Positions 15,994-54,355 of a DNA stretch of 64,000 nucleotides are shown piece by piece; within the stretch, counting starts at the first letter, position 1, and each line of letters starts with the position of its first letter. This stretch comes from Amphibalanus amphitrite (taxonomy: Eukaryota > Arthropoda > Thecostraca > Balanomorpha > Balanidae): the NCBI RefSeq assembly GCF_019059575.1, contig NW_024881591.1, positions 434,001 to 498,000 on the forward strand, given 5' to 3'. Made by a program: the position numbers and the translations under genes. Below the pieces are notes generated by a model. It had not been told where the DNA came from. It saw only the letters and a program-made list of their open reading frames with translations, and searched no databases.

Positions 15994-18900
15994 ATGTGGT
16001 CACCGAGGGAGGTGCGAGCCGGCCCGCCGCCGCTGGTGCTGCTCCTTCTGCTGCAGGTGGGTCCGACCGGGCGGCCGGTGGCCGGATAACGTTTAACCGG
16101 AATGGGTAAAACGGCGGAGAAGTGCCGATTTCTGACATGATGACGCACTGTGACATATTGTCTGACACCGTGAAAGTGTCATAATTTGATACTGACCAGC
16201 CCGCTGTGTCGAAACGGTATACGCCGTTTTGATGCAAAGCATTGCCGAGCGGCCGAGAAAGGACGATGGACGTAACCTAACCTAACCTAGCCTAACCTAA
16301 CCTAACGTTAGTTTCCCAAACCTGATCCGTAACATGCCCATATATCGGCAGGCGCACAGCACCCCTGACATGCCCCGTTTGCCCGCAGTCGGCGACTCTG
16401 TGCACCTGCCAGCGGTACCGGCCGCTGGTGCCTCCCAGCGTGTCTCTGGGGCTCGGCTCGGCCTCCGGACCCGTCCCCGCACAGGGGCTGGGCGCGGCGC
16501 CGGGTCCCGTCACTGCCCCGTTCTCAGAGACGGTGGAGCGCGGCACGGAGTCGGCCAAAATCCAGACCAACGACCCGCTCTGCGGCCTGGAGCCGCGGCG
16601 GAAGCGACAGGCGGGGCCGCCGGGAGGAGAGCCCAGCCCGCAGCCTCCGCTCCGGATCGTCGGAGGACTCACCGCCGAAGTCGGACGCTTCCCCTGGCTG
16701 GTGAGTCATGAGTAAAACCAAAGCCGGGGGAGAACTGATACACCGGCTATAGGAGTGTTATCGGAAAGGCAAATACGCCCCAGGGCACTAAAGAGTCACT
16801 AAACCCTCACCCATTGATGAGGATAAAATGACTTAAGACCAGTTGCATCCGCCGTGCTGGTAGGAGTATCATAGCGACACCAGCATAATAAAACTCCAGG
16901 TTCTATCGTCCGTCGTGATTCATTGCTTCTGTAGAAAACCACCCGTTGAATCTTTGTCCGCCAGGTGGGTGTCACCAATTTCTTCAGCACGGTGCCGTTC
17001 TGCGGCGGTGCCATCATCAACGAGCGCTTCGTCGTCACGGCCGCCCACTGCCTGCGAGGGTAACGTCCGAAGACCAAATACAATACCCCTCTGTACCTCC
17101 CTTAGGGCCGTCCACAGCCCGCGAGGGTAGCATTTGATTACCCCTTTGTATATACCTCCCCAATTCCCACAGGGCTACCCGCGAGGGTACCGGTGCTCCA
17201 GTCCTCTTGGCCCTGGGGCAAAAACGTCTTCGGGGATAATCTAAGATAGGCGCCTCCTTTGTTTCATCTACCAATGATTTCGACTTAAAAATTAACTCCA
17301 TTTCGTCGCGCGGAATCCGGCTCTTGTCTCCCAGGAAACGTAACCGCTATCGGCCCGTCTCAATAGCAATATTGTTTCTGCGCCGACTAAAATATGAGAG
17401 CATGGCAGTAGTCACTAGTCAGTAAGGACCATGCTCCGGCTTATATTGGTTCAACGAACTAGTTATTTACAACCCATCAGTCGTCTCTTTTCGACATTCG
17501 TAAAGAGACATTCCAGTCATGAAATGCTCATTACTTGTCCCATTTATGTCGCACTGAGACACACATCTCGTTTTCAGCCGGTCTCCAATTACGCTGGCCG
17601 TGCTCGTCAACAAACATCTGAGGAAGGAGGACGAGCGACAGATCAAGTTCGGCATCGAGAAGATCATCCGACACCCCGAGTATAGCCGAGAGACGCTCAC
17701 CGACGACCTGGCCCTCCTCAAGTGAGATATTTGGCTAGGGGTCGTCTTTGTTGGATTCGAGGGCGCAGAGCCGATTTCCGTTTTTTTTTTCGGACCGTTT
17801 CACCTAACAAGTCTCGTAACACCTACCGCTCTTTATCATCACGAATGTCAAAAAGAAAACGTTAAACCTTGCGTTAAACGTTGTAGTCCTAAAGCACGTC
17901 AGTACATACATACATAACTATCATAAACGATTTACCTACAGGTCGCCCGAAAAAAAAAAAACAGAATAAGATTCGATAAGGTTTAGTCAGTATTCTGAAC
18001 GCAACATTAGGTAGGATACTGAAAAGTGAAACTGAAAACGACACATAAATTACATATCGCTTGTTTGTCGAAGAATCGCAACGGCAGCACCATGCGAGAT
18101 AAGCGAAAGTTATTTTTGGGTTAATTGGGATTTATGCCGTTTGAAGGTTAATTCGTCAGCGCCATTTATAAACAGAGCTTACATCATTACCATTTGCCAC
18201 AATACCGTTGTGGTCCCATCTCAACAGACAGCGCATCCCGTTTTACTCATGACTCATCGTTCGATCAAGGTAAAGGCAATAGTAAAAAAGCTATTTGACA
18301 ACGGTTTGAGCCTTGAGGGCGTGGAAAATACATATATGGCACAGCAAACAAGATAAAGAATAATAATGACGGAACTTTGTCAGCTTCTCGAGATAAGTCG
18401 GTTGGTTCAACTTTGATATATTGGCATCGTCTTCTGGAGTGTAAATTAATGTTTGTCGTAAAAAAAATATGAACGAAGATCGTAGTAGAAACAAATCATA
18501 AACGATAAAACCAAACGGCATCCTATGTAACTGCGAGCGACGAGTGGGAATGGAATGGGCGACTGACTCTCCCTGCTCTCCAGGCTGAAGGACAGGAAAG
18601 GCCAGCTGCACGAGCTGCTGGCGAGCGGCACCGTCCGGCCCATCTGTCTGCCTGAGGAGCCGTGCGAGGGTACCGGCCGGCCGGCCTGCCTGCTGGAGCG
18701 AGCCGTCACCATCGCCGGCTGGGGCTCGCTGGCCGAGGAGGGCGCCAAGCCCACCGCCCTGCAGTTCGCCACCGTGGAGGTGCTGCCCAACGTGGTCTGC
18801 CGCGACGCCTACCGCCGGATCAACATCACCGTCAACGACCACATGCTGTGCGCGGGTCAGCGCGACGGCGGCAGGGACACCTGCCAGGTGGGTCCCACCA

Positions 18901-20949: not shown

Positions 20950-21032
<83 letters not shown>
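20950..21032. repeat. (TA)n microsatellite
   Basis: An uninterrupted run of about 41 TA units. The Tyr-Ile protein frames on both strands are its translation. Confidence 0.98.
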
Positions 21033-34262: not shown

Positions 34263-35773
34263 ATGGCTACTCGTGGGGTTAGTGAGACTGAGAAACTCCA
34301 AAAGAATCTGACAGATCAGCTTGACAGATTGATGTCTCAGCTGCAGGACTTGGAAGATTCAAAGTGAGTAGTTATTACTATGCGAAATCAGTTTGTACAA
34401 AACCACACAATGTGTCACGTCTTAATTTATTAGATAGGTTGGTATTTTTCAACTGGATGCTTATAACAGCGTTTCTGTAGCATTTATTTTGCCGGTGATT
34501 ATTGATCTGGACCGCAATTACAATGATAAGTAATGTGTTTGTGTGAATTACATAATGCCTGTTTGCTTTCTTCAATCAACTGATTGCTCCCTCCATGATC
34601 ACCTTCAGGGATGACCTTGATGCAGATGAATACAATGAAACCAGACAGGACACCATAGAGCAGCTGAAAGAGTTCCAGCAGAGGCTGAGCAAGTTCAGCG
34701 AGGGAGATCTGTCTCTTGTTGACCAGTTTGGAGCCACACAACTGGTAAGTTGGGACGATTCTACCATATGAAGGTATTTTAATGTTATCCTGCATTCAAG
34801 TTGTTGTATTCACATAGATCATATCATGGATCCTGGATTATTATCAGTTCCAAAGAGCTTTAAATATTGTGAAGAAAACCTGATTCCATTACATCTCAAT
34901 TTTGTTCCTACAGGCGATCCAGGCAGCCATAACGGAGGCGTTCCGCACGCCGGAGATAATCGGTCTGTTCGCGCGCCGCCAGCCGGAGGGTCTCCGTCAG
35001 CGGCTGTCCCAGCTCGAGCGGGACCACCGGCTGGGCCACCTGGCCGAGGAGAGCTTCAGCCAGCAGAGGGTGAGCCGACGCACCCGTCCCGTGCAGCCAC
35101 CGGGAGTGTGACCACCGTAACTTCAGAGCAGCTGGCGCCGTTCAAGCTGATTTTGATGATGATCGATTTATGACACTAGATGACCCACTCTGGTATAAAA
35201 TCTATTTTGTGGAATCGTTCTTCACATTTTCGTGTATTGCTCGCCGTCTAACCGCCGATTGCCCGTCGTCGCGCTCCCTCCCCCTCAGCTGGAGATCTTG
35301 TCTGCGCTGAAGAAGCTTGGCGAGCCCCTGACGCCGGAGGAGGTGCACTTCATGACCACCAACACCACCGACGACCTGCGCCAGTTCCTCGAGGACGACA
35401 TGAACGGTGAGGACGGGAACGGACGGGAAACGTGAACGGTGAGGGCGGGAACATGAATAGTGAGGCAGATCGCCGATTCCCATGCAGTCTGGGCGTCCCC
35501 GAAATAACAACGAAATATTAATCAACTAAAATGAACCATCACGAAGGTCGTATTCGCGCAATCAGCTTGCATCGTTGATCCAAATGGTGTGAGGGCTGGT
35601 ATCGATGCATTCCACCAGTTTCATTAGACCGGAGCTGTGTGCCGCTCTATTGTCGCCTGAGCGCGTGGTGTGACCTGTCCACATGTCGTGTGTTTAACCA
35701 GCGTCTCTCCATTGCAGTGTCATCGGAGCGGGTGGTGCGGCTGGCACAATCGGGACTGTCGGGCGGCACGTGA
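34263..35773 (+). CDS. LZIC: LZIC (leucine zipper and ICAT/CTNNBIP1 domain) protein, complete
   Basis: Five exons close in phase: 34263-34363, 34609-34744, 34914-35069, 35289-35406 and 35718-35773, 188 residues, close to the usual length of about 190. The N terminus (TEKLQKNLTDQLDRLMSQL and LEDSKDDLDADEY) forms the leucine zipper. The middle, LVDQFGATQLAIQAAITEAF then TPEIIGLFARRQPEGLR, is the most conserved block. LEILSALKKLGEPLTPEE begins the C-terminal ICAT-like helical domain. The ICAT domain is known from beta-catenin inhibition, but in LZIC it is not shown to bind beta-catenin strongly; vertebrate work links it to cell-cycle checkpoint and DNA damage responses. The C-terminal tail (VVRLAQSGLSGGT) is short. 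No oddities in splice sites. Confidence 0.92.
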
Positions 35774-37399: not shown

Positions 37400-40300
37400 T
37401 CACGCGTGGCCGGCGTCGCCTCCGGGCATGTCGACGCCGAACTTGCTGTGGTGCGCCGACCGTTTGGCGGCCGTCAGCCGCTCGTGGTGGATGTAGTTTT
37501 CACACACGTAACACCATACGGAGAGGTCGGCCAGGCTGAGCACCATGCAGTGGCCGGTGACGGCGCCGTGGTCCAGCATGTGGCACGAGCGGTACCGGCC
37601 GCAGCACACCTGGAAATAGACGGGGACGGTCAGATGGCGGTACCGGCCGCAGCACGTCTGAGACACCAGAGGGTGAGTAAATGCTCGAACACAGCGGTAC
37701 CGTCCACCGGCAGAAAAGGAGCCAGTGGTGAAGAACATTATTCGGTGGTGAAGAACATTATTCTACCGAGTCATCACGGTCCTGATCGTGGACCCGGCGA
37801 ACAGCTGAGAAACTTAATTGCACCCGACCTTGCGTCGGCACCGAGCTCCACTATACTCATTCAACCCACTGAACCTCCAAACGAAACATCGCCCAGTCAC
37901 CAGACCCCATGCCTCCCTTCCCTGTCTGTCCAGCTCTAGCCCTCCCGGCCCCACTCGGTTACCTGATAGCAGGTCAGACAGACCCAGTTCTCCTGGCTGT
38001 CCAGTACTCCCGGCCCCACTCGGTTACCTGATAGCAGGTCAGGCAGACCCAGTTCTCCTGGCTGTCCCCGCAGTCGGCTCCACTCGGTTACCTGATAGCA
38101 GGTCAGGCAGACCCAGTTCTCCTGGCTGTCCCCGCAGTCGGCCCCACTCGGTTACCTGGTAGCAGGTCAGGCAGACCCAGTTCTCCTGGCTGTCCCCGCA
38201 GTCGGCGCACGGAGCGGAAGCGTTGATACCTCCGACCGGCAGATCGGCTACCGTGCAGAGGTGGGGACAGTCGAGCAGCGGCACCACCGCGTACATATTC
38301 TGAGGGAGACAGAAGGAGAATGGTCAGCGGCACACCGCGTACATGTTCTGCCGGAGGGACTGATAGTGGGCGGTCAGACTGACATACTGACACATCGACA
38401 CTACACTATGCCACAGCGTGTCCAATAGACACCATGCCACAGCCGGGCCAATTGTGCTAAAAACAGCACGGCTGGTCACATTCAAAATACCGCCCAGTCG
38501 ATACCAGACGCGAACAAACAGAATTGCACACGCACATACCCAAGTCCAACCCTACTGCGCCGGACTGCTCGTCCCGGGGGCGTCAGTTAGGAGCTGTAAC
38601 AAGCATAGCTCCATGGAAAGGCGGTGGTTCGAGTCAACACTGCACGAGTCGCTCCCCGGTCGGTGTGACATTTGGGTCGCAGCGCGGTAAATGGGTCACT
38701 GGCCAGGAGGGCAGTGGGACTGGGAGCCGGCGGCCAGCAGTTGCGTGACGACCATGTCCAAACAGTGAAACGGCAGGGATTCGGACCGCTCCGTAGATGG
38801 CTGCCCGACACGCACGGACGCACGGACAGTGGAAGGGACGATACTGAGGGGTGTCTGCCGAGGGTGTCGCCTCTATTCCGGTGACAGCGGACGGCCCATT
38901 CAGCCGCCTGGGAACGCACACCTGAAGCCAACCTATGGAACAAACGTGTCATGAATTATAGTGCATCAGTATTCAGTATTTTCTATTTCTAAAACCTCAC
39001 TGTCTCTACACGTATGTGTGTACCGATAAAATGTCCAAAACTGAAATCAGTATACCAGGTAAAGGTCTAGCAGTGCATGCAGGCACAAGCTGCAAAGTAG
39101 CTATGGAATGCATGTTAATGTTCGGCGGCCTCATTCTCACCGTGTAATGGCTGCCCAATGACCAGTCTGTCGTCGTGGTGAGTGGTCAATGCGGCTCAGT
39201 CTGTCCTCGATTGACGTGCCCTGCTCATCGGCGACATTGTGCACTAATTGATACGGCCGACAGCACCGGCCACTAATTGATAGGGGAGTAGTTATTGGGT
39301 ATCAATGAACAGCGGTGATTAGGGATCTCCGGGCGGTGGCCGATACAGCGCCATATACGTGATGACTGGAGAGTGAAGAGGCCGGGCACCTTGCCGGGGA
39401 ATCAAGCGAGGACGACTGCGGGCTGATCCAGGGGGTAATATCAGGGAAGGGGCACTTCCATCATAAAGCCTTAGTGCAGCTGAACGGATACGATTAGTGC
39501 ATTACTGAAGCCGGAGGCAATAAAGCTCGCCACTGAAACTGGTTAACAATATGTCCATGAAGACGACCGAAATAGCGTGTAAAAAATCCCACATCTCGAC
39601 AAACAGACACCTGGGCCGACGTGCTACCAATGTGGGCTCCACTGTGTCCTGTTATGACTCCATACAGCTGACCTGGTCCTGCCCGGTCAGTCAGCCCGGG
39701 GTCGATCCCCGTTAGTGGCCCGGACATCCAGACCTGCCCGGGCCTGACCCAGTCCGCCGGGTCTGACCCAGTCTGCTGGGGTCGCGTCGATCCTCCGCGG
39801 TTTGGTCCCGTCAGGCCCCGATCCGGCTCGGGACTGCCCGGGTTGGGCCGATCCCCGGCGGTCCAGTCCCGTCCCGCCCGGGTCCGGGTCGATCCCCGTC
39901 GGACCTGGGACCAGTCCAGTCCGGTCCTGGGGCCGTATTCACGTCGACTTCGTAAGTCGATTTTCTTTCGTAAGTATAATTTGGTATTCACGTCGACACT
40001 TCTTAAGTTTTTATCGACGGAGTTCACGTGATTAAAAAAAATTACTTAAGAAGTAGGTCAAACTTAAGAAAATTCTTACGAAAATGATCGACGTGAATAC
40101 GGCCCCGGGTCTGGCTCAGGTCAGCTCGGGTTCGGGTCGATCCCCGGTCCGGTCCAGTCCGGTCACCGGGCAGCCGTGTCCGACCTGCCACAGTGACCGA
40201 TAGAGCGGACCGATCGACCGACCGACCGACGGGGGGAGGGGGGGGGGGGGCAGGTGACCTCAGCAGCTGACCACCGGCAGTCGGCCGGCGACAGCCGTGC

Positions 40301-43300
40301 GTGGTGGACAGCGACGGACGGACGGTGGAGGGTCAATGGAGATCGGCGGCGATTTGCCAGGAAAGACGGCAGTGGAGGGCGAACGGTGTCGTGCATTATC
40401 GAGTGGACGGTGACCACCGACCGAAGGTAACAGTCCCAGCAAAGACGATCGAGCTAAGCACCAGAGGAGACCCGGTAGACGAGTGGGGTGTGTATGAGGT
40501 ATGACTGAGGGCAGTCGATGTGATAGTGGGTAGCGAAAAGTCTGCTTATTGTAACCTAGAAGCATCCCCGAAGTCCTGGAGACACTTCACGTCACCAGTG
40601 CGTGGAGCCGTCCAAGTATCCGCGGCTGCCTAGGATCGACCACCCAGGCCTCTGACAGCACCACTCATCAATATCCCAGCCTCATCACGATCGCCCGCCG
40701 GCCGGCGGGCCGCTGAGCCCCGTGAGCGGGCCCTGGGATGCCGCTGAGCCGGCGGTCGTCCAGTAGCGGCAGTCGTCCCCTCCGGTCCGGCTCGTGTTCG
40801 TCGTCCGGCGGCGGCGGCGGTCCGCTGACGTCCTGCACGGTGACGGTGGCGTTCCTGCCGCTGAGCGGTCCGCGCCGGCCGCAGCCGCTGCTGCTCACCC
40901 AGGCCGGCCGGGTGGTGTTCTCCGGCCCGGTGCGGCCGCGCCAGCACGTCACGTTCGTCTCGCAGCGCCGGCCGCCGGAGCCGTTCTCGCTGACGGCGCG
41001 GCTGGGCGGTGTGACGGCGGCACGGCTGAGCGTCTGCTGCGAGCGCCGGCGGCCGGTGGGCGCGCGGCTGGGCGGCGCCGCCAGCCCGCTGGTGGTGCTG
41101 GAGGTCAGCGGCGGCGCCGGGCCCTGCGGCCGCTGCCTGGCCGCCACCGACCGCCGCACCCAGCGCCACCGCAAACAGGTCCGGAAACTCGACAGGAGAC
41201 TCAAGCGCATCTTCCTGGCGACTCGGATGAAGGTTCTGGCGGCGGGTGCGGGCGGCGCGGAGCCGGCCGGGGCAGACGCCGCGGAGCCGGCCGGGGCAGA
41301 CGCCGCGGCCGAGGCCGGCAGTGACAGTACGGAGCCCACGGCGGCCACGGCCACCACCTCCGGACACGCCGGCGACTCGGAGCCGTCCCCGCCGGCCAGT
41401 CCGACTCTGGCCGACTCCGACTCCGACTCCCAGTCCTCCGGCGCCGAGTCGGAGGTCGGCGAGGAGGAGTCCAGTGACACGGACGAGTCGATACAGACCG
41501 AGTCGCAGTCAGAGTCGGAGTCAGAGTCAGTGCGGGAGGTATTACCTGCCTGACGGGCTCCTTCCAGCGGCGGGCTGCCGTCTCACCAGGTGAACATACT
41601 CGGGGATCGGATCAGAATCGACCCCTGGGACAGAGAGTGCCACCACCAGCTCCACGAGGAACCTACCCCAGAGCCCCGAGCGTTCAGATCAGAACTTACG
41701 GTAATCTTCTTATCCTAGAAGTGTTTGATGCTCAGCCATACACCGGATAAATCTTCAGATGGTGGCCATATGGAGTGCATTACTGGTGTGTACGAATGCG
41801 ATGCTTTGACGAGGTAGAATGGCTATTGCCTGTTGACGCCGGATTGTTGTGTAAGTACATTGTTTGTTGGAAGAATGTGGTCCGGCTCAGGCTAATTACT
41901 TTATCGATCGTTATCCCTCATGTTGGTGATACACAATAACAATGACATGGTTACCTATTGGTTGGCAAATTTACTGCATGGATTATGTAAAACTGCTGCC
42001 ATTAATCCACAACACGTCAGGAGAGAATGATGCATAACACGATAGTTCAGCAGCAAAACTTAAATAAGCGCGCTGGTTGCTGTTTGATGAAACTTGCCAC
42101 TGCCAAATTATCCGACCAAAGAACGATGGAATAGAGCACTAAACAATAATACCGCTAAATACCTGCCCCCATCGAAAAAAGGCAGTTACACCGCATCGAT
42201 TCACCCAGAGTAGCACGGTAATAGTCCATACCATGATACACCCGTTTACCTACTCGATTGGATACGTTACAAACATTTATATGTCTGTCTGATATAAGGT
42301 ATGTGATTTCATCTGGCACCGATAAAAACAAGGGTACAAATGAACTATCGGAGGCAAGCAATGTCCAACCGATGAGCAGCTGGCCAAGTAAAAAATAAAT
42401 TCACGTTCGGTGCCAATTCGCAGTCTGATTGATCTCATCGACCTGTGACCATACCTGTCAGAATCGAAGAAAGAATCACGCAATGCGAAGCCGCAGAATA
42501 GAGCAGGAAGGACGGGACGAGGCAGCAACAGCGACAGTCTTCATCAACGGTATTTCTCAAATGTCGAGAGCTTAGGAGCTACATACTTCAGGCAGCAGAG
42601 ATATTGAAATGTCTTCGAAAATCGAAATTAATTTAGGATTTTATCGGTCAAAGCAATATAATTCACAATGCAATAGCAACCAGGAGTGGACAGATGCATT
42701 CCAAAGTTGACCACCTAAATATTGAAATTGGGGGCAATATAATTCACTGGTCTAATGTGACGCATTTCTACAATGAAGGCGAAAACGGTATATGGTGTAT
42801 GTTAACCAAGCTGACGTCAGCTGGCAACAGAGCTAAAGATTGGAAGCTCCCAATATAAAATAGGGACCTACTGGTAAAAACGAGCAGCACCAATCAGCGC
42901 TTCTTTCACTGAAAGATTTTAGTTGTCGGAGCTCCCCGTCGAAATCGAAAGCCGCCCAGGTAACACGTGCAGCGCGAAACGCTACACAACATAAAAAAAC
43001 TGGGCTAATGAGACTACCTGGATAATCATGGGCACGCTGAGAACTATAATTTACAGATAAACGCAGCGACACATTTCACCACGTCAAGTATCGGACATAC
43101 CACTATATCCCCCCCCCCCCCTCTCCACTGAGACAGCCCCCCGGCTCCACTGACCTGATTGGAGATCTCCTCGAGCACCAGAAACTGCTGCAGAGCGGCG
43201 TCTCCGGCGGCGAGCGCGGCGGCCACGGCTCCCTGCTCCGACAGACCGGAGGCCTCAGCCGCCCGCTCTGCCCAGGCCGACTTCACGGTGGCCGGCGGCG

Positions 43301-46300
43301 CGGCCGCCTTTTCCGCCTGTCCTTCCGCTGGTGTAGCGTCCTTTCCGGGCTGACCCTTCTCTGGCGGGGTAGCCTTCTCGCCCTCGCCAGCGGGACCAGT
43401 AACCGGCTTGGCATCCCTCTCGGGAGATCCCTCCACGGCCAGGTCGCCGGCGGCCGCCGCTGTCTCAGGGACCGCGGCCGCCGCTCCTGTGCCCTGGTCT
43501 TCAGCCAGCGTCAAACGGTCCACCAGACGCTCCAGCGGCTCCGGCTCCGGCTGCAGTTCAGGCTGTGGTTCCGGCTCCGGCTCCGGCTCCATCTTTGGCT
43601 CCGGCTCCGGCTGTGCTTTTGTCTCCGGCTCCGGCTCCGGCTGCCAGGCTGTCCGCGGCAGCACCGGCGGCCCGTCCTTCTCCGCCTCCTCTGCGGCAGC
43701 GGTGGTCGGCTCGGCGGTGACAGCGGCGTCTCCCCGCTGTTCTATGATGCGCCGCACCACGTCCAGCGGCTCCTTGGCCAGTCGGTACGGCTCGGCCACG
43801 GCCGGCCAGAACGGCCGCTGACTGTGCGCCACCGAGCACAGCGTGCGCGCCGCGCTCTCGTTGACGGCCGGCAGCGGCGGCAACTGCACGGCCGGGTCAC
43901 CCAGCAGCGCGCGCGCACACATGGCCATGCTGTAGGAGATGCTGGTCAGGTTGTAGCCGCCCTCGAGCGCCACCACCACGCGCCCGCCGGCCAGCGCGGT
44001 CAGGTGGTGGGTCAGGTGGCCGTACACCTCCGGAGGGACCAGGTAGCCGCCCAGCGGGTCGCCGCGCGCCGCGTCAAACCCAGCGGAGACGAGCACCAGC
44101 TCGGGGCTGAACTGGTAGCCCACGGGGAGCACGACGGTCAGCAGGGCGGCCAGGTACTCGGCGGCGCCCATGCGCGCCCGGTTCCAGGGCACGTTCACGT
44201 TGAACCCGGCGCCGGGCCCGCTCCCCACCCGGTCGTGGTCGCCGTCGTCCGACATTGGGAAGAAGAAGCCGAAGTCGTGCCGGTGTAGCGACATGTACAG
44301 CACGTCGCTGTCCTCGTAGAACATGTGCTGGATGCCTGCCGGCACGGGAAGGAAACAGTTACGATCCATGATCGTTAAAAATACTCCTGTAAGACTCAGA
44401 CAGACTGAAGATGTGTAAGCTGTTAGCACGGAGGTGTTATGCGAGACCTGACTGCCTTCATGCGGAAAGTAACAAAGAGGCCAGCATGAAACCAAACACG
44501 CCATTTTGATGAAAAATTAATGACTTATTCTGCAGAGCACAAAGTAGTTTGGGGCGTGTCTTCGCCGTCCTACGGGCCAACTCTTATAGATCAGCCAGCA
44601 TATTCTAAGAATCCAGCAAATTTTCCAAGACTATTAAGGTGATAATCCATAAAATAACCTGACTGTCGGGTGACTCGCGTGACCCATCTGTCGACCATTC
44701 CCGAAATGTGTCACACCCATCGACCAGTCTGCAAAAGTTCCGCGCAGACGGGATCGAACCGATAACAGCCCGATTATGTAAGATGCGGCAGTCCCTGAAA
44801 TAAATAATACTCTACACAATTCATGGACGATGCACTCCAACATACTTATTAACCCGCGCCCCACTGGGGTCTGCGTATAACACGCCCTACTGGGGGGGGG
44901 GGGGCTATTCATAGCCCCCCCTCCTAACTCCGAAACTACTGGGCCGATTGTCAAAATTCAAACGGCGTCTGATAGCCCCGGAAAAACTGTCGAGCGAAAC
45001 CTAATTTCATTGACCTCGAGGTCACCGATGACGTCACAGGTCAGGTCAAAGTAAAAATTATTAGCATTTTGGCTTCTTCACGTTTTGGGCTCTGGCCGCC
45101 GTCTTACAAGTCAGATCAGGCTCATTTTTGGTTCACACACTCGTGAACAGATGCTCTAGATACTCTGAGGGTACCAAACTTGTACTTTGATTTTCAGGTC
45201 AAGGTCAGGTCATCACAGGTCACGAAAATATTATATCATCCGTCGGTCACGTGACACATGTTTTACGGTCCATTTAGGCCAAACACTTCGAATTTGATGT
45301 CGTCTGTGTCATTCGAGGTCATTTTGAGTCAAATTTAGCTCAGGTCAGGTCACTTTCAGGTCAAAAAAGGTCAAATTTTGAAGTTAAAATTTTTCAACAA
45401 ATAAGGTGTCTATTGGATGCAGTTTGAGCTCAGGAACACGATGGTGCTATTTATATTGGCGTACGATGTCAAATTCGTGCTGAAAAATTGATTTGAAAAA
45501 TTAATAATTGTTAATTTTTTGCAATAATGCGTATAACTTGGCCATTTTTGGAGATATTTAGCTAAAACTTGCTAGAGTTAGTCATAATAATGCGTTCTAT
45601 CACATATATTCCGGTTTTTTCGAAAAGTCAAAAAGTTTTTGAAAAAAATGTAAAAATACAAATTTTGAATTTTATTATATAAAATTTTCGAAATTTTCAA
45701 AATTTCGAAAATCCGAGATAGCAGTTTGATAGCTCAGTCTATTCTGAGTCCTCTCATGCAAAGAAATTGGATCTAGCTTAAAAACTGAGCTCTTGGGAGC
45801 GATTGCCGTGGTTCACTGTTTTGCGTCGAAATCGGCCGAACATGACGTCACTCTGACGTCATTTCCGGCCGACCTATGGTAGGTACGAAGTTCAAATTTT
45901 GACACAAGGTGTCAAATTGATGCAGCCGAAGGTACTGAAAGTTTGGCGTCGATACGTCAAGCGGTTCGGAAGTTATTGCAGAAAAACGGGAGGGGGGCTA
46001 TAAATAGCCCCCCCCAGTGGGGCGCGGGTTAATCCGCCAGCCGCTCCCCTTCTATGAAATCCTTCGCCGTTTTCAGCTCAACGTCCAAGACTGCACTATC
46101 GGCTCGCTAGTTTTGACAGGCACTTTTCTCACCTCAACATCGAGAAAACGAGCAGTCACATCAAAGCTGAATGTTCTCGTACTTATACCATTGCTCGCAA
46201 ATAACACCGACCCCGTCCAAACTAACAATAACCGGATTGGTGATATGATCCCGTTTCCCCACTGTTTCTGTTCCTCATCGTAGCCGTACAACCACTGTTT

Positions 46301-49300
46301 CCGTGTCTCACCGTGTCCGTGATGGACGTTGTTTCCATGTGTTCCCGTCTCTCACCGTTTCCTACGTGGATTAGACGCCCCCCGTTTTCCCACTGTTTCC
46401 GTGTCTCACCGTTTCCGTGGTGGACCTTTCCCCACTGTTTCCGATTCTCACCGTTGCCGTGGTGGACGTCCCAGTCGAGTATCATCACCCGGCGCAGGCC
46501 GTGCGCGCTGACGGCGTGCCGCGCCGCCACCGCCACGTTATTGAACAGGCAGAAGCCGTGAGGGGTGTCCGGCTCGGCGTGGTGACCCGGCGGCCGGACC
46601 ACGCACAGACCTGAGCCGCTCTCACCGGAGAGCACACTGTCCACCGCCTGAAACAGAGGGGTACGACTAGAAACAGACCGGAGCCGCTCTCCAACACAGA
46701 ACCGAGCCGCTCTCACCGGACAAAGCGGTGTCCACCGCCTGAAACGGGAGATAGGGCGATAAGAGTAAGACCCCTATAACTATATGGCCTTGGTAAGACC
46801 ACAGTCAGCCAGTCACTAACTACATAAGATTACAGGACACAACAGGTCATAATAACCAAGACAGCTGGCGGCTTTAGGTCGCTAGATTCGAAATCATGCC
46901 AAGCAAACGGTCAACATCGGTCACCAAATATGTCTCCATGTCGTTTCGGGTTCCCCATAGTCACCTCCTCCGCCTCTCTCACCTCCACCACACAGCCGGC
47001 CGCCAGCAGTGCGCAGTCGTAGCTCTCCGGGCAGAGGAACACGGAGTTGAACCGGTCGGCCAGACGGTCCAGCTCCGACTGGGAGAGCTGCTCGGTGTCG
47101 GACAGCGCGGCCACGTGCGCCGGCTCGTGCGGGGGCACCAGCTGCTCGGGAGCAGCGCGCAGCTGGCCGGGGGTGCGCAGACAGCGGTCCGACAGGCCCC
47201 AGGCGCTCAGCCGCGTCAGGATCGACTGCAGACGCGCCGGACGCTCCGGGTGGTCACTGCGAGGGAAGGAGAGACGGTCAGTGGGCGGTCACAGGTCACT
47301 CACTGGTTGGTGAACGGAACGACAAATGACAGGACGTACGCTGTAGAGAATAAAAGGGAAAGAAAAAAGTAAAATACCTGTTTGTTTGCTTTTTTATGGG
47401 CTTTAGGGACATTGAGTAAACACGTCATTAACAAACATGTCATTAATATATGTCAAATTTAACAGAGCCGTTGAAAGTCGGTAACGATTGTACCGCGCTA
47501 ATCGGGCTTTTATCCACGCCCCAGATTAGCGTGTTGGCGTGCCACTCACGGGTCGTCGACGTTGCGGTGTCGCATCATGTCCTCGTTGGTGGCCAGACAG
47601 ACGCGGTGGGCCGGCGGCAGCGGCCGAGACACTGAAACACAACCAAATGACACACTGCGTGACGATGGACTACGTCCGCGGCGGGAGGGGTGGGGTCACC
47701 GTTCCGTGCTTCTATCCTCAGGATACTGAAATCCTTCTCCTCCACGCCGCAACCCTCTCTGGGCTGGACAGGCAACTTTATCTCATGCGGGCTGCTCCCT
47801 TGGAGCGGCACCGCTGCTCCCCAGGGAGCGCACCCCGTAGCCGGGTGCAGTGAGTGCCTTGGGGCTGGGTGGCCTGTCCTCTGGACGGGCTCAGCCCCGG
47901 CGACTCACTAGGGTGCCTGCCCAGACCAATGTCTCCCCCTATATCCTATTATCCTCCCGGCTCTGAAATGGTCTAATTGGACCGAAAGGGCCTAACCCAA
48001 CAAAACAACAAAACAAAGGGGTGGGGTGGGTTTAGTACAAACTTAAGCTAACTCGTCCAAAATTTGTCGATTTGACTTACTACCACCCTGTTACCCTGTA
48101 CTTGAGTGTCTAGCAAGGACGACAGACAGGGAACACTTTTGCGATACCTATATTTCAAGAGTCCTTTTCAACGAAACCCAAAAATTTATTTATCTATTCC
48201 CTGAATAACAAACATTTGTTTTAGTGGATTCTTCAATCTGTCTCCATTTAGAAAGCGGTTCGTTACCTATGTTTTCAGGATCGCAGCAACTACAAACCTA
48301 AAAACGAGCAAACAAACTATTAGCACCCATACAAGTTACAACATTTCACACCTTTGTTTTATTCGCCCGGCCTTTCCAATCCAATCACTAGCAATCAATC
48401 GCCATTCGCCAGCATTGTTTGTGACGCAAGTGCGGACGGAGCGAGCGAGCGCTGTGTGGTGCCGCCGATGGGGAGGCGCCGCGCGCGCACGGCGGGCAGC
48501 TGACGCTCCGCACACGGCCCGCCGGCCACTAGCTGCCCATAACTCCGCCCACCGCTCCACTGACGTCACGGCACCGCACAGCTGGCGGCCCGGCGCGTTA
48601 TGTGCACCTACTGCGGTCGGAGAAAGGGAGACACGGCCGGTGGCACTTGCTTCCAACTTTCCGCCAACTCTGCGACTTGCTGCGACACCGGGGTAGCACC
48701 GTAGCAGTGGGCTGGATGGGCGGCGGCAGATCGCGCTGGTGTTGCGTTATGAGGAGACCCGACCACACTTATGTAGTTTTAGAATCAGGACGTGGTGGAA
48801 GGACCATTGAGCATGAGTGTGTGGATAAAATGAGCTTGTAATGTAAAAACGAAAATACAAATTTCAAATTCGTGTTTTTAAAATTCCCCCGGCTCACCAG
48901 GCCCCTGGGGGACCAACGACAACCTGGAGGAGGGTCGGATCCGACCCTTTGTTATCTCGAGAACCAATGGTCCTATAGAGACCCGCGAGGCGGCGTTTGA
49001 AAGCTCTCCACGAGATCTTCCCAAAGCATTCTCAAGATTTCAGGATTGATATCATCTTTCGGGTCAATATCAGGTCCAGGATCAGGCCAAAGGTCGAATT
49101 GGGGTATTCGCACGGCATGGCTTGAATGGTGGAATAAGTAAGTTTCTGCCCGAAACTAAGCCAAAGTGACCTTAAATACTTTGTAAAGGTGCCTTGTTAG
49201 CATAAGTGTCATACGAAGGGTCAAGGTCAAGGTCAGGTCATGAAAGGTCACTTTGAGACAACTCATCGACGAGAGTTGTCATGCTTCTTTGGAGTTGAGT

Positions 49301-52300
49301 GACAGATTTTCGCGCTTATTTTGATGGTAGTCGTTGTTCAGCATCCTGACCTTAGTTGCAGAAGCATAAATCAAGCTCAATGTCACGTCAGGTCAGATCA
49401 GGTCACGAAAGGTCACCTTATGCTACGTGGGTATGCGACATAATAAAACGTAGAAGTTATTTTTCACGCCGGATCCGACGGTATGACCTCACTTACGACT
49501 TATATGACTGACATGAGACTGCTACCTAACCTCTCACGATATTACGAGTACATTCCATCCCCCGCTCCCCGCCCGTCACTCACCGAGCAGCAGTCTGTTG
49601 AGCCGCTCCAGGGCGTCCGGCGGCGGCTCGGGGTTGGGCCCCACCGGGCGGGGCGGCCGCGCCGGCGGCGGCCAGTGGCAGTCGGGCGCCGACACAGCCC
49701 ACTCGTCAGCAGAGGCCGAGAAGGTGCCGTGCCGGCCCAGGAACGGGGAGGTGGCCCGGTGGGCGCACATCACGTGCCGGATGGTGGTCGACACGCTGAC
49801 GGAGGGGTGCGGGCGGAGATAGTGGTCAGGGTAGGCTGGTAAGAAGCGATCACTGCAGGTCAGGTGTGCGTGGGCAACTTCTAGCTTTAACCGTCCACAA
49901 GTCGGTAAAGGGCGGTCCACCAGTCGCTGAGCCACTTCAACTGAGTCCAATGGTCAATGCAACCAGCGATAACAAATGGAAGTTCGGTAGTCACCGCAAC
50001 CAGCCGTAAAAATGACTCGGCCAACACAGAAACGCATGGAGCGCAAACTAATTAACCTACGGACAGAATGCATCCGGATCCAGAATCTCGTCCTCAGTCC
50101 GTTCCTCTCCCAGTCACATGAGCATCCATCCCCAGCCCCGTCTGCCCTCCCACCTCTCCGACGGCGGCGGCAGGCTGGCCGGCAGCGGCGGCGGCGGCTC
50201 CCCGAGCAGAGTGGCCAGTGTGTGCGCGGCGGCGGCGGCCAGCGCCGGCCGGCAGTAGCCGCCCTCCAGAACGGCCACCAGCCGACCGGCCGAGAGCGCC
50301 AGCAGCGCGTGCGTCAGGTGCGCGAAACACGCCGGCGTCACCGCCATGCAGCCCTGCCGGCGGATAGACGGCGGGGACGGGCGGACGGCGGTCAGAGACG
50401 GACGGTGGTTAGAACAGAAACATCATACACAGAAGCATAGACATTATTGATACTTGTGAAGCAAACAGATGCCTCAGATATTGTACGGACAAAATGCGTT
50501 AGCAGATGGTGTAAGAACATATTAACAGGTGTTAAAACATGTTAACAAACTTAGAATCATCTTGGAAGGTTCGCCAAAGAGACTCACCTTAGGATCTCCT
50601 AGCGCCATGTCGAATCCAGCGGACACGATCACCAGGTCCGGTGCGAACTGAAACACGGAAACGCCGTCAGCTCGTGGACATTGGACAAAATATCACAATT
50701 AAACATAATCTGTTCTACAGTACCTTACCACTCCCCACTCTGACCTGACATTATCCATCCCTCTGTCTAGAACCCCACTCTAACCTGATAGGCGGCCGGC
50801 AGCAGGAGCCGGTGCCACACGGCCATCAGGTCCGAGTCGGTCGCACTCCCGTCCAGCGGTACGTTCCAGTTGAGCCCGGCGCCGGCGCCGGCCCCGCTCC
50901 GCTCCCAGTGGCCGGCGCCGCCGCCCGGCCAGTACGCGCCGCCGTCGTACCGGTGCACCGAGAAATACAGCACACTGCCGGCGGGTGGAGTCAAGATAAC
51001 TTTACTAAGTGGAACGCCGTTAGACAGACGGAGAACCCAAGGGAACCGTAAGGCGGCAGAAGGGGAGCCAGACTGCCGTCGTACCGGTGCACCGAGAAAT
51101 ACAGCACGCTGCCCGAGGACGGAACGGCTTAGGCCGACGGAAAAAGGACACATGCGGGACAAAACACGGCAGCAGACGAGGAGCTCAAGGAAAATACAGT
51201 GAGAAACAAAAATACTGACGCAGTATAAACCAAAGAATATGAGCAAAAAAAAATATAATAAGCCAATTCGGCCAAAGGCACCGACTTCTCCCGGAAACTG
51301 GAAGCCAAATATATTTCACACCCCGTCCCCTTCAACTTTCCCCGAACGTAACCGCCCAGCCTCCCTCTCTACGGTCTCCAGAGGTAGGGCCTCGCCCGCT
51401 ACTGACCTCTGGTCAAAGTAGAACATCTCCTGCGTGCCCTGGCCGTGGTGCACGTCCCAGTCGACGATCAGCACCCGTTTGCCGCGGTTAGCCGCGTGAC
51501 GCGCCGCCAGTGCCACGTTGTTGAAGAAGCAGTACCCGCTGAATTCGTCCGGCTCAGCGTGGTGGCCCGGCGGCCTGAGGTCATAGGTCACAGGTCACAG
51601 GTCAGGTCAGAAGCCGTATCTGCTGAACTCGTCCGGCTCGGCGTGGTGACCCGGGGGTCTGAGGCCAGGTCACACAGGTCACAGGTCAGGTCAGAAGCCG
51701 TATCTGCTGAACTCGTCCGGCTCGGCGTGGTGACCCGGCGGTCTGAGGAAGCAGGTCAGGCCACAGGTCAGGTCAGGTCAGAAGCAGTACCCGCTGAACT
51801 CGTCCGGCTCGGCGTGGTGACCCGGCGGCCTGAGTGGGGTCAGAGGTCAGAGTCAGGGCATAGGTAGGTTAAAGGTAAGCTCATAGCGAGGTCAGTAACT
51901 GCTGTGCATCCTACAGTTCCCAGTACACGTTCACTAGAGGCTCATCGATACCCGCTCACTCTCCGTGCAAGGGGCACGTCCTTCCGCAAAGATCATACTC
52001 CGACCGCCCTGTCTGCCTTTTGAACAAGATAATATGAGCACTTTCGACGAAGCACATACTGACACCGTCCGCGAGGCCGACTCTCACCTGACGATGGCGA
52101 ACCCGTTCTGCAGTTTTCCGTCCAGGACCTGATCGGTCAGTTCCAGGGCAGAGCCGGCCGCCAGCGCGGCGCACTGGAACGTCGCCTGGGAAGGATACCG
52201 CAGAGGGACACGGTCACTGGCGAGATACTGGAATGCTTATTGCTTATGAGCTACTGGAGCTTCCATAGAACGGCGTCTAGGACAAAATAACAAACAATTG

Positions 52301-54355
52301 GTACAACGCAACTTCGAGGGACGTCGTCCCACACAGACTACCTATTTGGACAATAAGATTAAAGGTAGCTGCATTTCCTTCATTGACAAGAGGCGGGCGG
52401 GCGGACTGTGCGTTCCAGAGCCGCCAATGAACGGGCAGACCGTGCGCCTGCACTGACCGGGTGGAGGTAGACTGAGTGGCGCTCACCAGCCCCCACTGAC
52501 CGGGTGATCGCGCGCAGCGGACCCCGTGTACTGACCGGGTGGAGGTACACCGAGTCGTGTTAACCGCCTCCCCCCCCCCCCCCCCCCACTGACCGGGTGG
52601 AGGTACACTGAGTCGTGTTTGTCGGCCTCCTGGCGGAGCTGCTGTGGCTCTCCCCGCTCGCAGAGCTGGCGCAGCCTCTGGATGTGCTCCGGGCTGTGAC
52701 AGAGCTGCAGTTCCTCCTCCGTGGCGGGCCGGGCCGGGACGCGCTGGCAGCGGTCCACCAGACCCAGCTGGGAACACCTGGACACGGAACAAGTACGCTG
52801 GTTACACCCACTTCGGCAGGACCAGTTGGGACTGCATGGAGCACCTGAGGTATGGACTTTGATTACTTATACCTCGCGGGAAAAAAACGTCAGGTCCGGC
52901 ACAACGCAGTCTGCGGAACGAGTATCGAGTCTGACTTTGAAAATCCATCTATTACAAATATTCGAACTTAATCCCCAACAACCAAATTGTAAACTAATAT
53001 GACATCAAGCACTACGTGAGCCAGCTGACTAGTGATGACAGTTCATAGCGTAGAATAGATACCCGCGACCGTTATCCTCACTTGTCAAAGATGACCTGCA
53101 GCCTGTCGGGTCCCTCTGGGAAGTCGTCGTCCCAGAGGCAGCGGTGTTTCAGCATCCGCTCATCATACATCAGACCGGTGGCGCCGCGACGCACCTCGGC
53201 CGCCGCGTCACACTGAACGCACGAGAACAGTTAATGGCAGCGGGATACGCCAGTGGGGCACAGAGAACGATACAGCGGGTATTAGCGGAACGATACAGCG
53301 GGTAATTCAGGCTGGACGGGATGATACAGCGGGGATACAGGGGTGATGCTAGCTGTGCTGAATGATACTTTTTTTTCAAGTTTATTGAACATCATCTTCA
53401 ATATTACGAAATATACAAAGCAGTAGACGGAGACGTTGGCCCCCGCCCGCGCCGCCTCGCACCCACGCGCGTCTTTCACGCGAGGCGGCGCCCCCTGACC
53501 ACCGGCCCGCCCCACGGGCCACAGACGGTCCGAGGGACGGGCCGGCGGCCCGGCCTGCCCAGCATATGCTGGGGGGCCGGGCACGGGTTGGCCCGGATGG
53601 GGTAGGGCGGGGGCCACAAATCGCACGAGGCGACGCTAACTCAATAATCACACATCAGAGCCAAGAGGTGCCACCCCTGGCCACATAGCCTCTTGGCAAG
53701 CGACAAGATCTCGAGTCCTCCAACCCCACCTCTCCCCCTCCCTACCCTCATTTACTAAACGGCACTCTGTACATTCAGCTAAATACATCATCTATGGATA
53801 TTTCAAATATAGTTGAGTGGTCCCTGTCCACTACAAATTTCCACCTCTCTCTAAATTTTTCTAACGAATTTTTGTTTTTTTGCAATTACTTCTTCTGCAC
53901 GACAATGGTTTATGATCCCTCCTATTGCCCCGTTTAATGACGGTCTAATGTAATCTTCTCTTAACTTACATGATGTTATATATTGTTTGCAGAGCAATAG
54001 TATCAAATTTACTACATCAGGGGCTTGTGTATATGATATGTGCTGAATGATACTGCTGGCACCACGTTGCGCGTAAATGAAGTCGATAACGTAAAGTTTA
54101 TCACGTGCGAGTCCCAAACCCGGCAGGTCGCAGGACAGCGCCACTCACCGGTGCCAGAGGATCGAACACGGCAGCCTTAGGACTGGCACCTGCAGCTGCC
54201 GCCGCCGCCGCCGCCGCCGCCTTCTTCTGTTTACGCAGCTGCTGCACGTTGATGCGCGGCTGAGCGGTCGCCGTCGGTGTCAGGCGCGGACTGCGGCGGG
54301 GCCGCGACTCCGCGCCGCCGCCGGACGGGGTCCGCCCCCCTCCGCGGGATGTCAT
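37400..54355 (-). CDS. HDAC6: Histone deacetylase 6 (tubulin deacetylase, two catalytic domains plus ZnF-UBP), complete
   Basis: Fifteen minus-strand exons close exactly in phase: 54149-54355, 53082-53212, 52594-52777, 52088-52185, 51407-51574, 50785-50974, 50588-50647, 50154-50353, 49584-49795, 47550-47631, 46983-47256, 46452-46647, 43155-44335, 38156-38299 and 37400-37609; 1178 residues. Deacetylase domain 1 spans about residues 85-400 ([40 protein letters not shown]). Domain 2 spans about 490-830 ([55 protein letters not shown]). Zinc-binding His/Asp and the catalytic Tyr are present in both. A low-complexity linker (about 830-1060) holds (EP)n repeats. The last two exons form the ubiquitin-binding finger: [18 protein letters not shown], then CCGRY and [10 protein letters not shown]. 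Family role: cytoplasmic deacetylation of tubulin and cortactin, aggresome transport. An Ala run (AAAAAAAAAA) is in exon 1. Introns contain a nested gene, two mobile elements and many exon-edge duplications. Confidence 0.95.
37591..37660 (-). repeat. Echo of the acceptor side of the last HDAC6 exon
   Basis: GGTACCGGCCGCAGCAC (exon start, read on plus) at 37591-37607 recurs at 37639-37655, period 48, each followed on the plus strand by CCTGG or GTCTG, so both copies keep an AG acceptor on the minus strand. Confidence 0.75.
37956..38212 (-). repeat. Four-copy 64-65-bp tandem repeat built from the donor side of HDAC6 exon 14
   Basis: CGGTTACCTG starts at 37956, 38021, 38085 and 38149. Each unit holds the exon end coding [16 protein letters not shown] and a GTAACC donor. 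Only the 38149 copy joins the full exon. The two inner echoes are nearly identical to the exon; the outermost has CAGTACTCC in place of CCCGCAGTCGG. Confidence 0.92.
38276..38350 (-). repeat. Echo of the acceptor side of HDAC6 exon 14
   Basis: CAGCGGCACCACCGCGTACA...TTCTG at 38276-38302 recurs at 38325-38350 with one deleted base and one substitution. The exon coding MYAVVPLL starts in the inner copy; the outer copy is frameshifted by the deletion. Confidence 0.85.
39660..40160. repeat. Degenerate GC-rich minisatellite interrupted by a MITE
   Basis: Motifs such as GGGTCGATCCCCG, GTCCGGTCC and CTGACCCAGTC recur from 39660 to 39928 and again from 40107 to 40160. The palindromic element 39929-40106 sits inside, so it inserted into an existing array. 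Confidence 0.7.
39929..40106. mobile_element. Palindromic MITE with GGGGCCGTATTCACGTCG ends, copy 2
   Basis: It matches 23532-23713 nearly base for base, including TCGTAAGTCGATTTTCTTTC and the inverted half. The right end GTGAATACGGCCCC is cleaner than in copy 1. Nested in HDAC6 intron 14. Confidence 0.88.
40738..41553 (+). CDS. DUF4590/ERICH3-like domain protein nested in an HDAC6 intron on the opposite strand
   Basis: An open frame of 271 codons starts at an ATG ([12 protein letters not shown]). Residues about 33-145 resemble the DUF4590 domain of ERICH3 (C1orf173): [55 protein letters not shown] and GPCGRCLA, with the conserved CCE and CxxC pattern. A basic helix follows ([20 protein letters not shown]), then a duplicated AEPAGADA unit and an acidic Ser/Glu/Asp tail. 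ERICH3 is linked to cilia in vertebrates. The codons are strongly GC-biased. The frame lies in the 4.9-kb HDAC6 intron 14. GTATTA at 41538 could be a donor, so this may be one exon of a larger gene; no other exon was identified. Loss of the start to an upstream exon is also possible. Confidence 0.7.
   Translation: MPLSRRSSSSGSRPLRSGSCSSSGGGGGPLTSCTVTVAFLPLSGPRRPQPLLLTQAGRVVFSGPVRPRQHVTFVSQRRPPEPFSLTARLGGVTAARLSVCCERRRPVGARLGGAASPLVVLEVSGGAGPCGRCLAATDRRTQRHRKQVRKLDRRLKRIFLATRMKVLAAGAGGAEPAGADAAEPAGADAAAEAGSDSTEPTAATATTSGHAGDSEPSPPASPTLADSDSDSQSSGAESEVGEEESSDTDESIQTESQSESESESVREVLPA
43549..43652 (-). repeat. (Glu-Pro)n coding microsatellite in HDAC6 exon 13
   Basis: GGCTCC/GGCTCCGGCTCC units code EPEPEP stretches separated by TKAQ, KM and QPELQ. 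It lies in the linker between deacetylase domain 2 and the zinc finger. Confidence 0.85.
44850..46032. mobile_element. Non-autonomous piggyBac-type element, 1.18 kb, TTAA flanks
   Basis: TTAA at 44850-44853 and 46029-46032 flank perfect 17-bp inverted ends CCCGCGCCCCACTGGGG. TTAA target plus CCC ends is the piggyBac hallmark. Subterminally both ends carry a G-run, CTATTCATAG or CTATAAATAG, and a C-run; the left end has an extra 26 bases. The interior is AT-rich with many AGGTCA hexamers (44990-45390) and no transposase frame. It lies in HDAC6 intron 12. Confidence 0.88.
46285..46467 (-). repeat. Tandem repeat built from the donor side of HDAC6 exon 12
   Basis: Units like CACTGTTTCCGTGTCTCACCG then TTTCCGTGGTGGAC recur four times (about 46291, 46337, 46388 and 46430), period about 42-50. 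The 46452 copy is the true boundary of the exon ending DWDVHHGNG. The minus-strand frame stays open through the copies ([20 protein letters not shown]), and each copy keeps a GTGAG donor. Confidence 0.82.
46613..46746 (-). repeat. Echo of the acceptor side of HDAC6 exon 12
   Basis: GAGCCGCTCTCACCGGA...GTCCACCGCCTGAAAC occurs at 46613-46654 (true exon start 46647) and again at 46704-46745, period about 91. An extra GAGCCGCTCTCC lies between. The outer copy keeps an AG acceptor but its frame soon stops. Confidence 0.82.
48880..49470. repeat. AGGTCA-rich sequence in HDAC6 intron 9
   Basis: GGGTCGGATCCGACCC, a perfect 16-bp palindrome, lies near 48932. GGTCAAGGTCAAGGTCAGGTCA and similar hexamer clusters follow at 49218-49420. 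No coding sequence; it resembles 28890-29460 and the interior of the 44850 element in motif content. Confidence 0.45.
50941..51113 (-). repeat. Echo of the acceptor side of HDAC6 exon 6
   Basis: GCCGTCGTACCGGTGCACCG and the following AGAAATACAGCAC occur at 50941-50973 (true exon, [11 protein letters not shown]) and again at 51075-51107, period 134, one substitution just beyond. Both keep an AG acceptor on the minus strand. Confidence 0.88.
51541..51834 (-). repeat. Four-copy 84-87-bp tandem repeat built from the acceptor side of HDAC6 exon 5
   Basis: Copies start at 51541 (true exon), 51625, 51709 and 51796. Each echo codes [13 protein letters not shown] on the minus strand behind a CTCAG acceptor and is separated by AGGTCACAGGTCAGGTCA-type spacer. 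The outer echoes would add a premature stop if spliced in. Confidence 0.92.
52451..52633 (-). repeat. Repeat built from the donor side of HDAC6 exon 3
   Basis: CACTGACCGGGTGGAGGTA is at the true boundary (52588) and again at about 52530 and 52451; a shorter CACTGACCGGGTG is at 52494. The 52530 copy extends across 42 bases, including GAGTCGTGTT. A 17-base C run separates the first two. Confidence 0.85.
53354..54054 (-). mobile_element. 5'-truncated LINE fragment with 16-bp target-site duplications
   Basis: TGTGCTGAATGATACT flanks the insert at 53354-53369 and 54039-54054. On the minus strand the insert (54038-53370) begins inside a frame ending at 53851 ([17 protein letters not shown]... [14 protein letters not shown]), which resembles the extreme C terminus of Tx1/L1-type LINE reverse transcriptases. 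About 480 bases of 3' UTR follow, then AATAAA and an A-run of nine. It lies in HDAC6 intron 1 in the sense orientation, so its polyadenylation signal faces the HDAC6 transcript. Confidence 0.85.

Follow-up and report, generated by a model that had tools for sequence, protein, structure and literature searches.

Gene model and duplicated exon edges

The window, i.e. the whole stretch of 64,000 nucleotides of Amphibalanus amphitrite DNA that was analysed, corresponds to C94:434001-498000 in a genome assembly of 807.55 Mb and 2644 contigs. Its reverse strand carries an HDAC6 gene of 15 coding exons, which join into an unbroken reading frame of 1178 amino acids across 14 introns, all 14 of them bounded by GT and AG. 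Two Hist_deacetyl stretches and a zf-UBP domain were identified in the protein with Pfam. An open stretch with a match to DUF4590 (PF15257, E 2.4e-15) lies antisense in HDAC6 intron 13 and is probably a nested gene or exon. Coordinates of these and other features of the window are collected in Table 1.

Duplicated exon edges were searched for in two ways. Edge probes of 45 bases (35 exon and 10 intron bases) were aligned to the adjoining intron, and an alignment score of at least 16 was counted as a copy. Of the 28 HDAC6 splice sites, 8 have a local copy of the exon edge together with the splice site. When the introns were shuffled (20 shuffles, hit edges only), the best scores were 9.5-10.5 for C94 and 8-13 for C130, the contig with the second haplotype. 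The lag scan is ungapped, covers lags of 16 to 400 bases, requires a score of at least 16 and includes a low-complexity filter. It returned 22 duplication clusters in the window, 11 of which touch exon edges, 8 of these in HDAC6; three block-wise dinucleotide shuffles of the window gave 0 clusters each in the same scan. Both procedures agree on the same 8 of 28 edges, and these are exactly the eight HDAC6 junctions that had been named in a first-pass annotation made from the sequence alone.

That annotation had described the exon ends as copied outward in tandem with a period of 42 to 134 bases. The copies themselves were confirmed, and 14 of the 15 spacings between successive copies fall inside this range (the remaining one is 35). 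Arrays are present at the exon 5 acceptor, the exon 14 donor and the C130 exon 12 acceptor, whereas several other sites have only one extra copy; at the exon 12 donor, additional degenerate copies can be seen by eye. The description as tandem does not hold for the exon 6 acceptor, where the repeat is separated from its copy by a spacer instead of forming a full head-to-tail unit. The further copies listed by the first-pass annotation at two other genes of the window were both recovered by the lag scan, which also found one at a donor of an ICAT-domain gene that was absent from that list. In the other haplotype this donor has a shorter copy, which is visible by eye and lies under the lag-scan threshold there.

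Table 1. Features of the window (positions from the first base of the window; lags and predicted extensions refer to C94 unless marked)
Feature	Position	Strand	Copies and lags	C130	In-frame outer site (predicted)
HDAC6 gene	37400..54355	-			
Exon 3 donor copies	52449..52619	-	3 copies, lags 58, 93, 136	2 copies	lag 93, +31 aa; C130 lag 72, +24 aa
Exon 5 acceptor array	51525..51834	-	3 extra copies, lags 84, 168, 255	1 extra	
Exon 6 acceptor copy	50941..51113	-	39 bases, lag 134, 95-base spacer	absent	
Exon 12 acceptor copy	46604..46745	-	1 extra, lag 91	6 extra	
Exon 12 donor copies	46250..46469	-	2 copies, lags 42 and 140	not found	lag 42, +14 aa
Exon 14 acceptor copy	38285..38356	-	1 copy, lag 48	2 extra	
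Exon 14 donor array	37942..38206	-	3 extra, near-identical, lags 64, 128, 193	single copy	
Exon 15 acceptor copy	37589..37655	-	1 copy, lag 48	lag 47	lag 48, +16 aa
Acceptor copies, Loqs exon 7 (gene name from the first-pass annotation)	5925..6108	+	lag scan		
Donor copy, protease exon 3 (gene name from the first-pass annotation)	17039..17129	+	lag scan		
Donor copy, exon of ICAT-domain gene	35398..35452	+	lag scan		
DUF4590 open stretch in HDAC6 intron 13	40774..41526	+			
Long open frame resembling a non-LTR element reverse transcriptase (by eye)	2748..4616	-			
Perfect (AT)41 microsatellite	20950..21032				

Splice signals of the copies

The GT or AG signal is kept in 15 of 15 copies in C94 and in 13 of 14 in C130 (28 of 29 in total), which bears out the earlier statement that the copies keep their splice signals. 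The site scores of most copies are near or above that of the real site, and the outward copies are potential decoy splice sites. Selection to keep GT or AG is not claimed from these numbers, since the copies are not independent of each other and detection favours intact ones. Splicing at an outer site is predicted to lead to a premature stop in 24 of 28 cases, including each outer site of the exon 5 acceptor array; the other four would add between 14 and 31 residues in frame (Table 1).

Comparison with a second haplotype

A region of contig C130 (516-556 kb) is collinear with the window over approximately 39 kb, with gaps. Its HDAC6 reading frame is free of internal stops, and the same 15 exons fit both sequences, the C130 exons having been placed by similarity to those of C94. 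The exons are 92-99% identical between the two contigs and the introns 83.5% identical (5518 aligned columns from 13 introns, the longest left out), so that about 16% of the aligned intron positions differ. The simplest reading, which falls short of proof, is that C130 represents an uncollapsed haplotype of the same genome. A paralogue was considered and rejected in view of the collinearity over about 39 kb and of other deacetylase genes that are likewise found on pairs of contigs. For one barnacle, a coding diversity of about 5.5% between alleles is reported in PMC8270832. Long satellite-like arrays with a period of 143 bases are located at C130:507527-513864 and C130:514807-515577, in a part of the contig (506-516 kb) that has no match to the window among the matches listed.

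Edge probes detected copies at 6 of the 28 HDAC6 edges of C130. Five edges are common to both haplotypes, namely the exon 3 donor and the acceptors of exons 5, 12, 14 and 15. The acceptor of exon 6 and the donors of exons 12 and 14 have copies in C94 only, and the exon 6 donor in C130 only. Copy number varies by haplotype as well, with 1 extra copy in C94 versus 6 in C130 at the exon 12 acceptor and 3 versus 0 at the exon 14 donor. Persistence in a second assembly, which had been named as a check, was thus assessed on the second haplotype instead: five of the eight HDAC6 sites are kept and three are missing. By eye, a repeated piece of 16 bases can be made out in intron 6 of C94. Remnants below the threshold are therefore possible, and presence or absence in a haplotype may partly reflect loss rather than gain. 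The exon 12 acceptor array of C130 (C130:534829-535392) consists of seven units, most of which contain an internal donor-like motif, GGTGAGA; judged by these signals, its units could in principle act as micro-exons of 22 bases.

Test of junction enrichment in HDAC6 and in other genes

The first-pass annotation had further judged the clustering at junctions to be higher than chance. Inside HDAC6 this holds at the nominal level. In C94, 8 of 14 clusters touch exon edges, as compared with 3.35 expected under random placement (p = 0.006), and in C130 6 of 8, with 2.74 expected (p = 0.018). Probes gave a similar picture, with copies at 8 of 28 edges versus 15 of 461 intron tests in C94, where the intron rate is near background, and at 6 of 28 edges versus 23 of 348 intron tests in C130, where it is higher than in C94. 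These figures have to be read with the reservation that the two haplotypes share ancestry and are not independent, and that the gene was picked post hoc because it was striking.

An independent set was therefore compiled from approximately 247 kb elsewhere in this genome, with HDAC6 and C130 excluded. As about 200 of its edges are on C94 itself, it is not a genome-wide sample. Its edges were predicted by a home-made gene finder, for which HDAC6 provided the first training set and the program's own predictions the next. The program placed 10 of the 15 HDAC6 exons exactly right, and with its exons the number of HDAC6 edges with a copy was 6 in C94 and 6 in C130, versus 8 and 6 with the curated exons. 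Before counting, 6 of 73 non-HDAC6 clusters were dropped because they were wholly exonic, exceeded 700 bases or lay at the edge of a mask. The probe test was confined to introns longer than 100 bases and to probes that are not of low complexity.

Among the remaining clusters, 16 of 67 touch a predicted edge, with 13.7 expected by rotation (303 edges, p = 0.29). No significant edge excess was found under any of nine settings that differed in exon score, site score, threshold or gene proximity and used random cluster placement (p = 0.29-0.68). The probes detected copies at 12 of 279 edges (4.3%) and in 95 of 3143 intron-interior tests (3.0%, p = 0.28), the latter count including outer copies of edge arrays and thus being, if anything, too high. 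None of 107 exon-interior probes of this set had a copy in an intron. With a stricter exon set the rates were 7 of 236 (3.0%) at edges and 98 of 2966 (3.3%) in intron interiors, and at two higher alignment thresholds they were nearly equal (2.5% versus 2.3%, and 1.8% versus 1.7%). Around the 303 edges, the duplication cover is 5% at the edge itself. Inside the intron it amounts to 7-8% between 20 and 70 bases from the edge, to 4-5% between 170 and 290 bases and to approximately 10% beyond 350 bases. Depending on the setting, the comparison of junctions with intron interiors, which had been suggested along with the original observation, thus covered 235-355 predicted edges in the 247 kb, and no significant difference was detected.

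Outside HDAC6, duplications are therefore common in this sample, without a clear concentration at junctions, and junction targeting as a general rule is unsupported by it. The 110 kb of sequence on the flanks of the window alone contain 42 clusters. HDAC6 is a post-hoc outlier: its 8 of 28 edges differ from the 12 of 279 in other genes (Fisher p = 1e-4, curated versus predicted edges), and the 95% intervals of the edge rate do not overlap (13-49% in HDAC6, 2.2-7.4% in other genes). Edges touched by clusters amount to 16 of 199 on C94 outside HDAC6 versus 3 of 117 on other contigs (p = 0.05). This hints at variation between regions or between genes, and edge duplications may be more frequent than average in the vicinity of HDAC6. 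In summary, the original observation is real and its description is correct, but an attraction of duplications to junctions is not borne out beyond HDAC6.

An internal duplication with a lag of 128 bases recurs at C94:405638-405883, C94:406300-406641, C94:499738-499983 and C58:338302-338522. The three C94 loci have sequence in common, which suggests a repeated element.

Possible survivorship of edge-spanning copies

Duplications wholly inside exons would be purged, and the first-pass annotation had cautioned that those spanning an edge might simply be the ones that survive. The decay of duplicated pairs was simulated with the exon copy constrained and the other copy neutral. The detectable lifetime of an edge pair was 1.56 times that of an intron pair; with one copy preserved by selection, an edge-spanning duplication remains recognisable for a longer time. 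Correcting the edge rate of 4.3% for the recovery of the gene finder (12 versus 14) yields approximately 5.0% and, by simple arithmetic, an edge-to-intron ratio of about 1.7. This is close to the simulated value, and slower decay thus suffices to account for the small residual excess outside HDAC6, as the caveat had anticipated. The absence of intron copies of exon-interior sequence fits the purging of exonic duplications. Selection on one copy alone can thus make junctions look like hotspots, a point that matters for claims of intron gain by tandem duplication.

Origin of the copies and alternative explanations

We consider it probable that the HDAC6 edge copies are boundary-spanning tandem duplications of the type published as “mirages”, in a highly polymorphic genome, and that no splice-directed mechanism need be invoked. 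Duplications would arise by microhomology or slippage at places unconnected with splicing, and arrays would then grow and shrink via unequal exchange. The copies would be tolerated because normal splicing still takes them out. While wholly exonic copies would be purged and intronic copies would fade as both sides mutate, edge-spanning ones would be slower to fade, their exon side being preserved by selection. The number found in HDAC6 would then reflect chance or a local hotspot, and would have drawn attention because the gene is striking.

At the exon 14 donor, the C130 allele is unduplicated. By eye, the parent sequences of the C94 joints share GCCG and GGACAG (4 and 6 bases; a script gave 3 bases each, since its search began at base 6), consistent with an initial duplication by slippage or via microhomology and later growth of the array. 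A dispersed origin of the units was rejected for the two sequences searched: the exon 12 acceptor unit has 7 matches in the genome, all in HDAC6 on C94 and C130 (very common words skipped), and the exon 6 acceptor spacer (93 of its 95 bases) matched only itself. The exon 6 acceptor resembles an insert flanked by direct repeats more than a full tandem unit. Among 55 single-pair clusters in all sequence analysed, the matching stretch is as long as the lag or longer in 15 and shorter than 0.4 of the lag in 16, so partial forms of duplication are common. Some observations speak against this preferred reading: the excess in HDAC6 is larger than the decay model predicts, with near-background intron interiors in C94, and is seen in both haplotypes, related by ancestry as they are; the edges of the independent set stem from a gene finder that placed 10 of 15 HDAC6 exons exactly; the duplication cover rises mildly at 20-70 bases into the intron, and the exon 6 acceptor has its spacer form.

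The same excess also speaks for a duplication process directed to splice junctions, e.g. by R-loops or splicing-linked breaks, with exon edges as mutational hotspots. Clusters and probes are both in excess at the HDAC6 edges of either haplotype, and four edges differ in the presence of copies between them, be it via gain or loss. However, the edges of other genes lack a clear excess, with a rate whose interval stays below that of HDAC6, and HDAC6 was selected after the fact; we thus hold a directed process to be rather improbable. It is slightly more probable, though still unlikely, that new introns or alternative splice sites are born from the copies, when an outer site is taken into use and adds exon sequence or splits an exon. 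Nearly all copies retain GT or AG, and most of these score close to the real site or higher; four outer sites would extend the frame without a stop, and the exon 12 unit has its internal donor-like motif. Against this, most outer sites would lead to a premature stop, and the Adh3 data and globin RT-PCR presented for lancelets are reported to suggest that splicing is undisturbed by such copies (PMC3087553).

That the arrays are assembly artefacts can be given very little credence. The arrays were read from assembled sequence, and the copies at the exon 14 donor hardly differ from one another; yet five of the eight are also present in the second haplotype, despite its divergence of about 16% in aligned intron columns, and most copies differ among themselves. 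At the other extreme, a subset of genes including HDAC6 might have true hotspots of edge duplication in both haplotypes, and hyperpolymorphic animals might continually make spare splice sites that can seed new introns or isoforms. We regard this as a long shot.

Relation to known systems

In the literature searched, mirages are described for lancelets and none came up for arthropods, and a query on splice-site duplication combined with microhomology found no paper. Several described systems are nevertheless related. Repeats near intron-exon borders are also the subject of Rogers and Bendich 2025 (PMC11782384); there, the two borders of one intron are compared, whereas in HDAC6 one border is repeated outward. 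New introns of Daphnia pulex are described as having direct repeats of 4-17 bases from staggered breaks and as varying within populations (PMC4202315). Population variation with direct repeats in or beside introns is thus a common trait, but the Daphnia repeats are found at new introns, while the HDAC6 matches extend over approximately 16-130 bases and the introns are common to both haplotypes. The repeat and spacer at the HDAC6 exon 6 acceptor are the nearest likeness to the Daphnia neointrons.

New introns or splice sites derived from boundary-spanning copies have been proposed for lancelet globins and published for a potato RdRp gene. In the latter, an intron was gained by a tandem duplication across an intron-exon boundary that carried the acceptor and the start of the exon (PMC4974935). 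The duplication crosses the boundary in both cases; a spliced new intron with RNA reads is described for potato.

The closest counterpart are the lancelet mirages, known in the globins BflGb6 and BflGb9, Adh3, troponin C and PGBD5 (PMC3087553, PMC3902484). These are minisatellite-like tandem duplications across the 5' or 3' intron-exon boundary, with units of 10-160 bp. AG or GT is kept in many, not all, copies, and two BflGb6 haplotypes have 6 and 3 copies. The barnacle copies likewise span the boundary, mostly keep their signals and differ in number by haplotype. They differ in occurring in another kind of animal and at numerous junctions within a single gene, and in that splicing data are reported for lancelet Adh3 and, by RT-PCR, for the globins, the HDAC6 copies being documented at the DNA level. 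By their structure, the HDAC6 copies probably belong to this known kind, which then occurs outside lancelets as well, in an animal whose alleles also diverge strongly. Allele pairs such as these let the birth or loss of boundary-spanning repeats be read directly.
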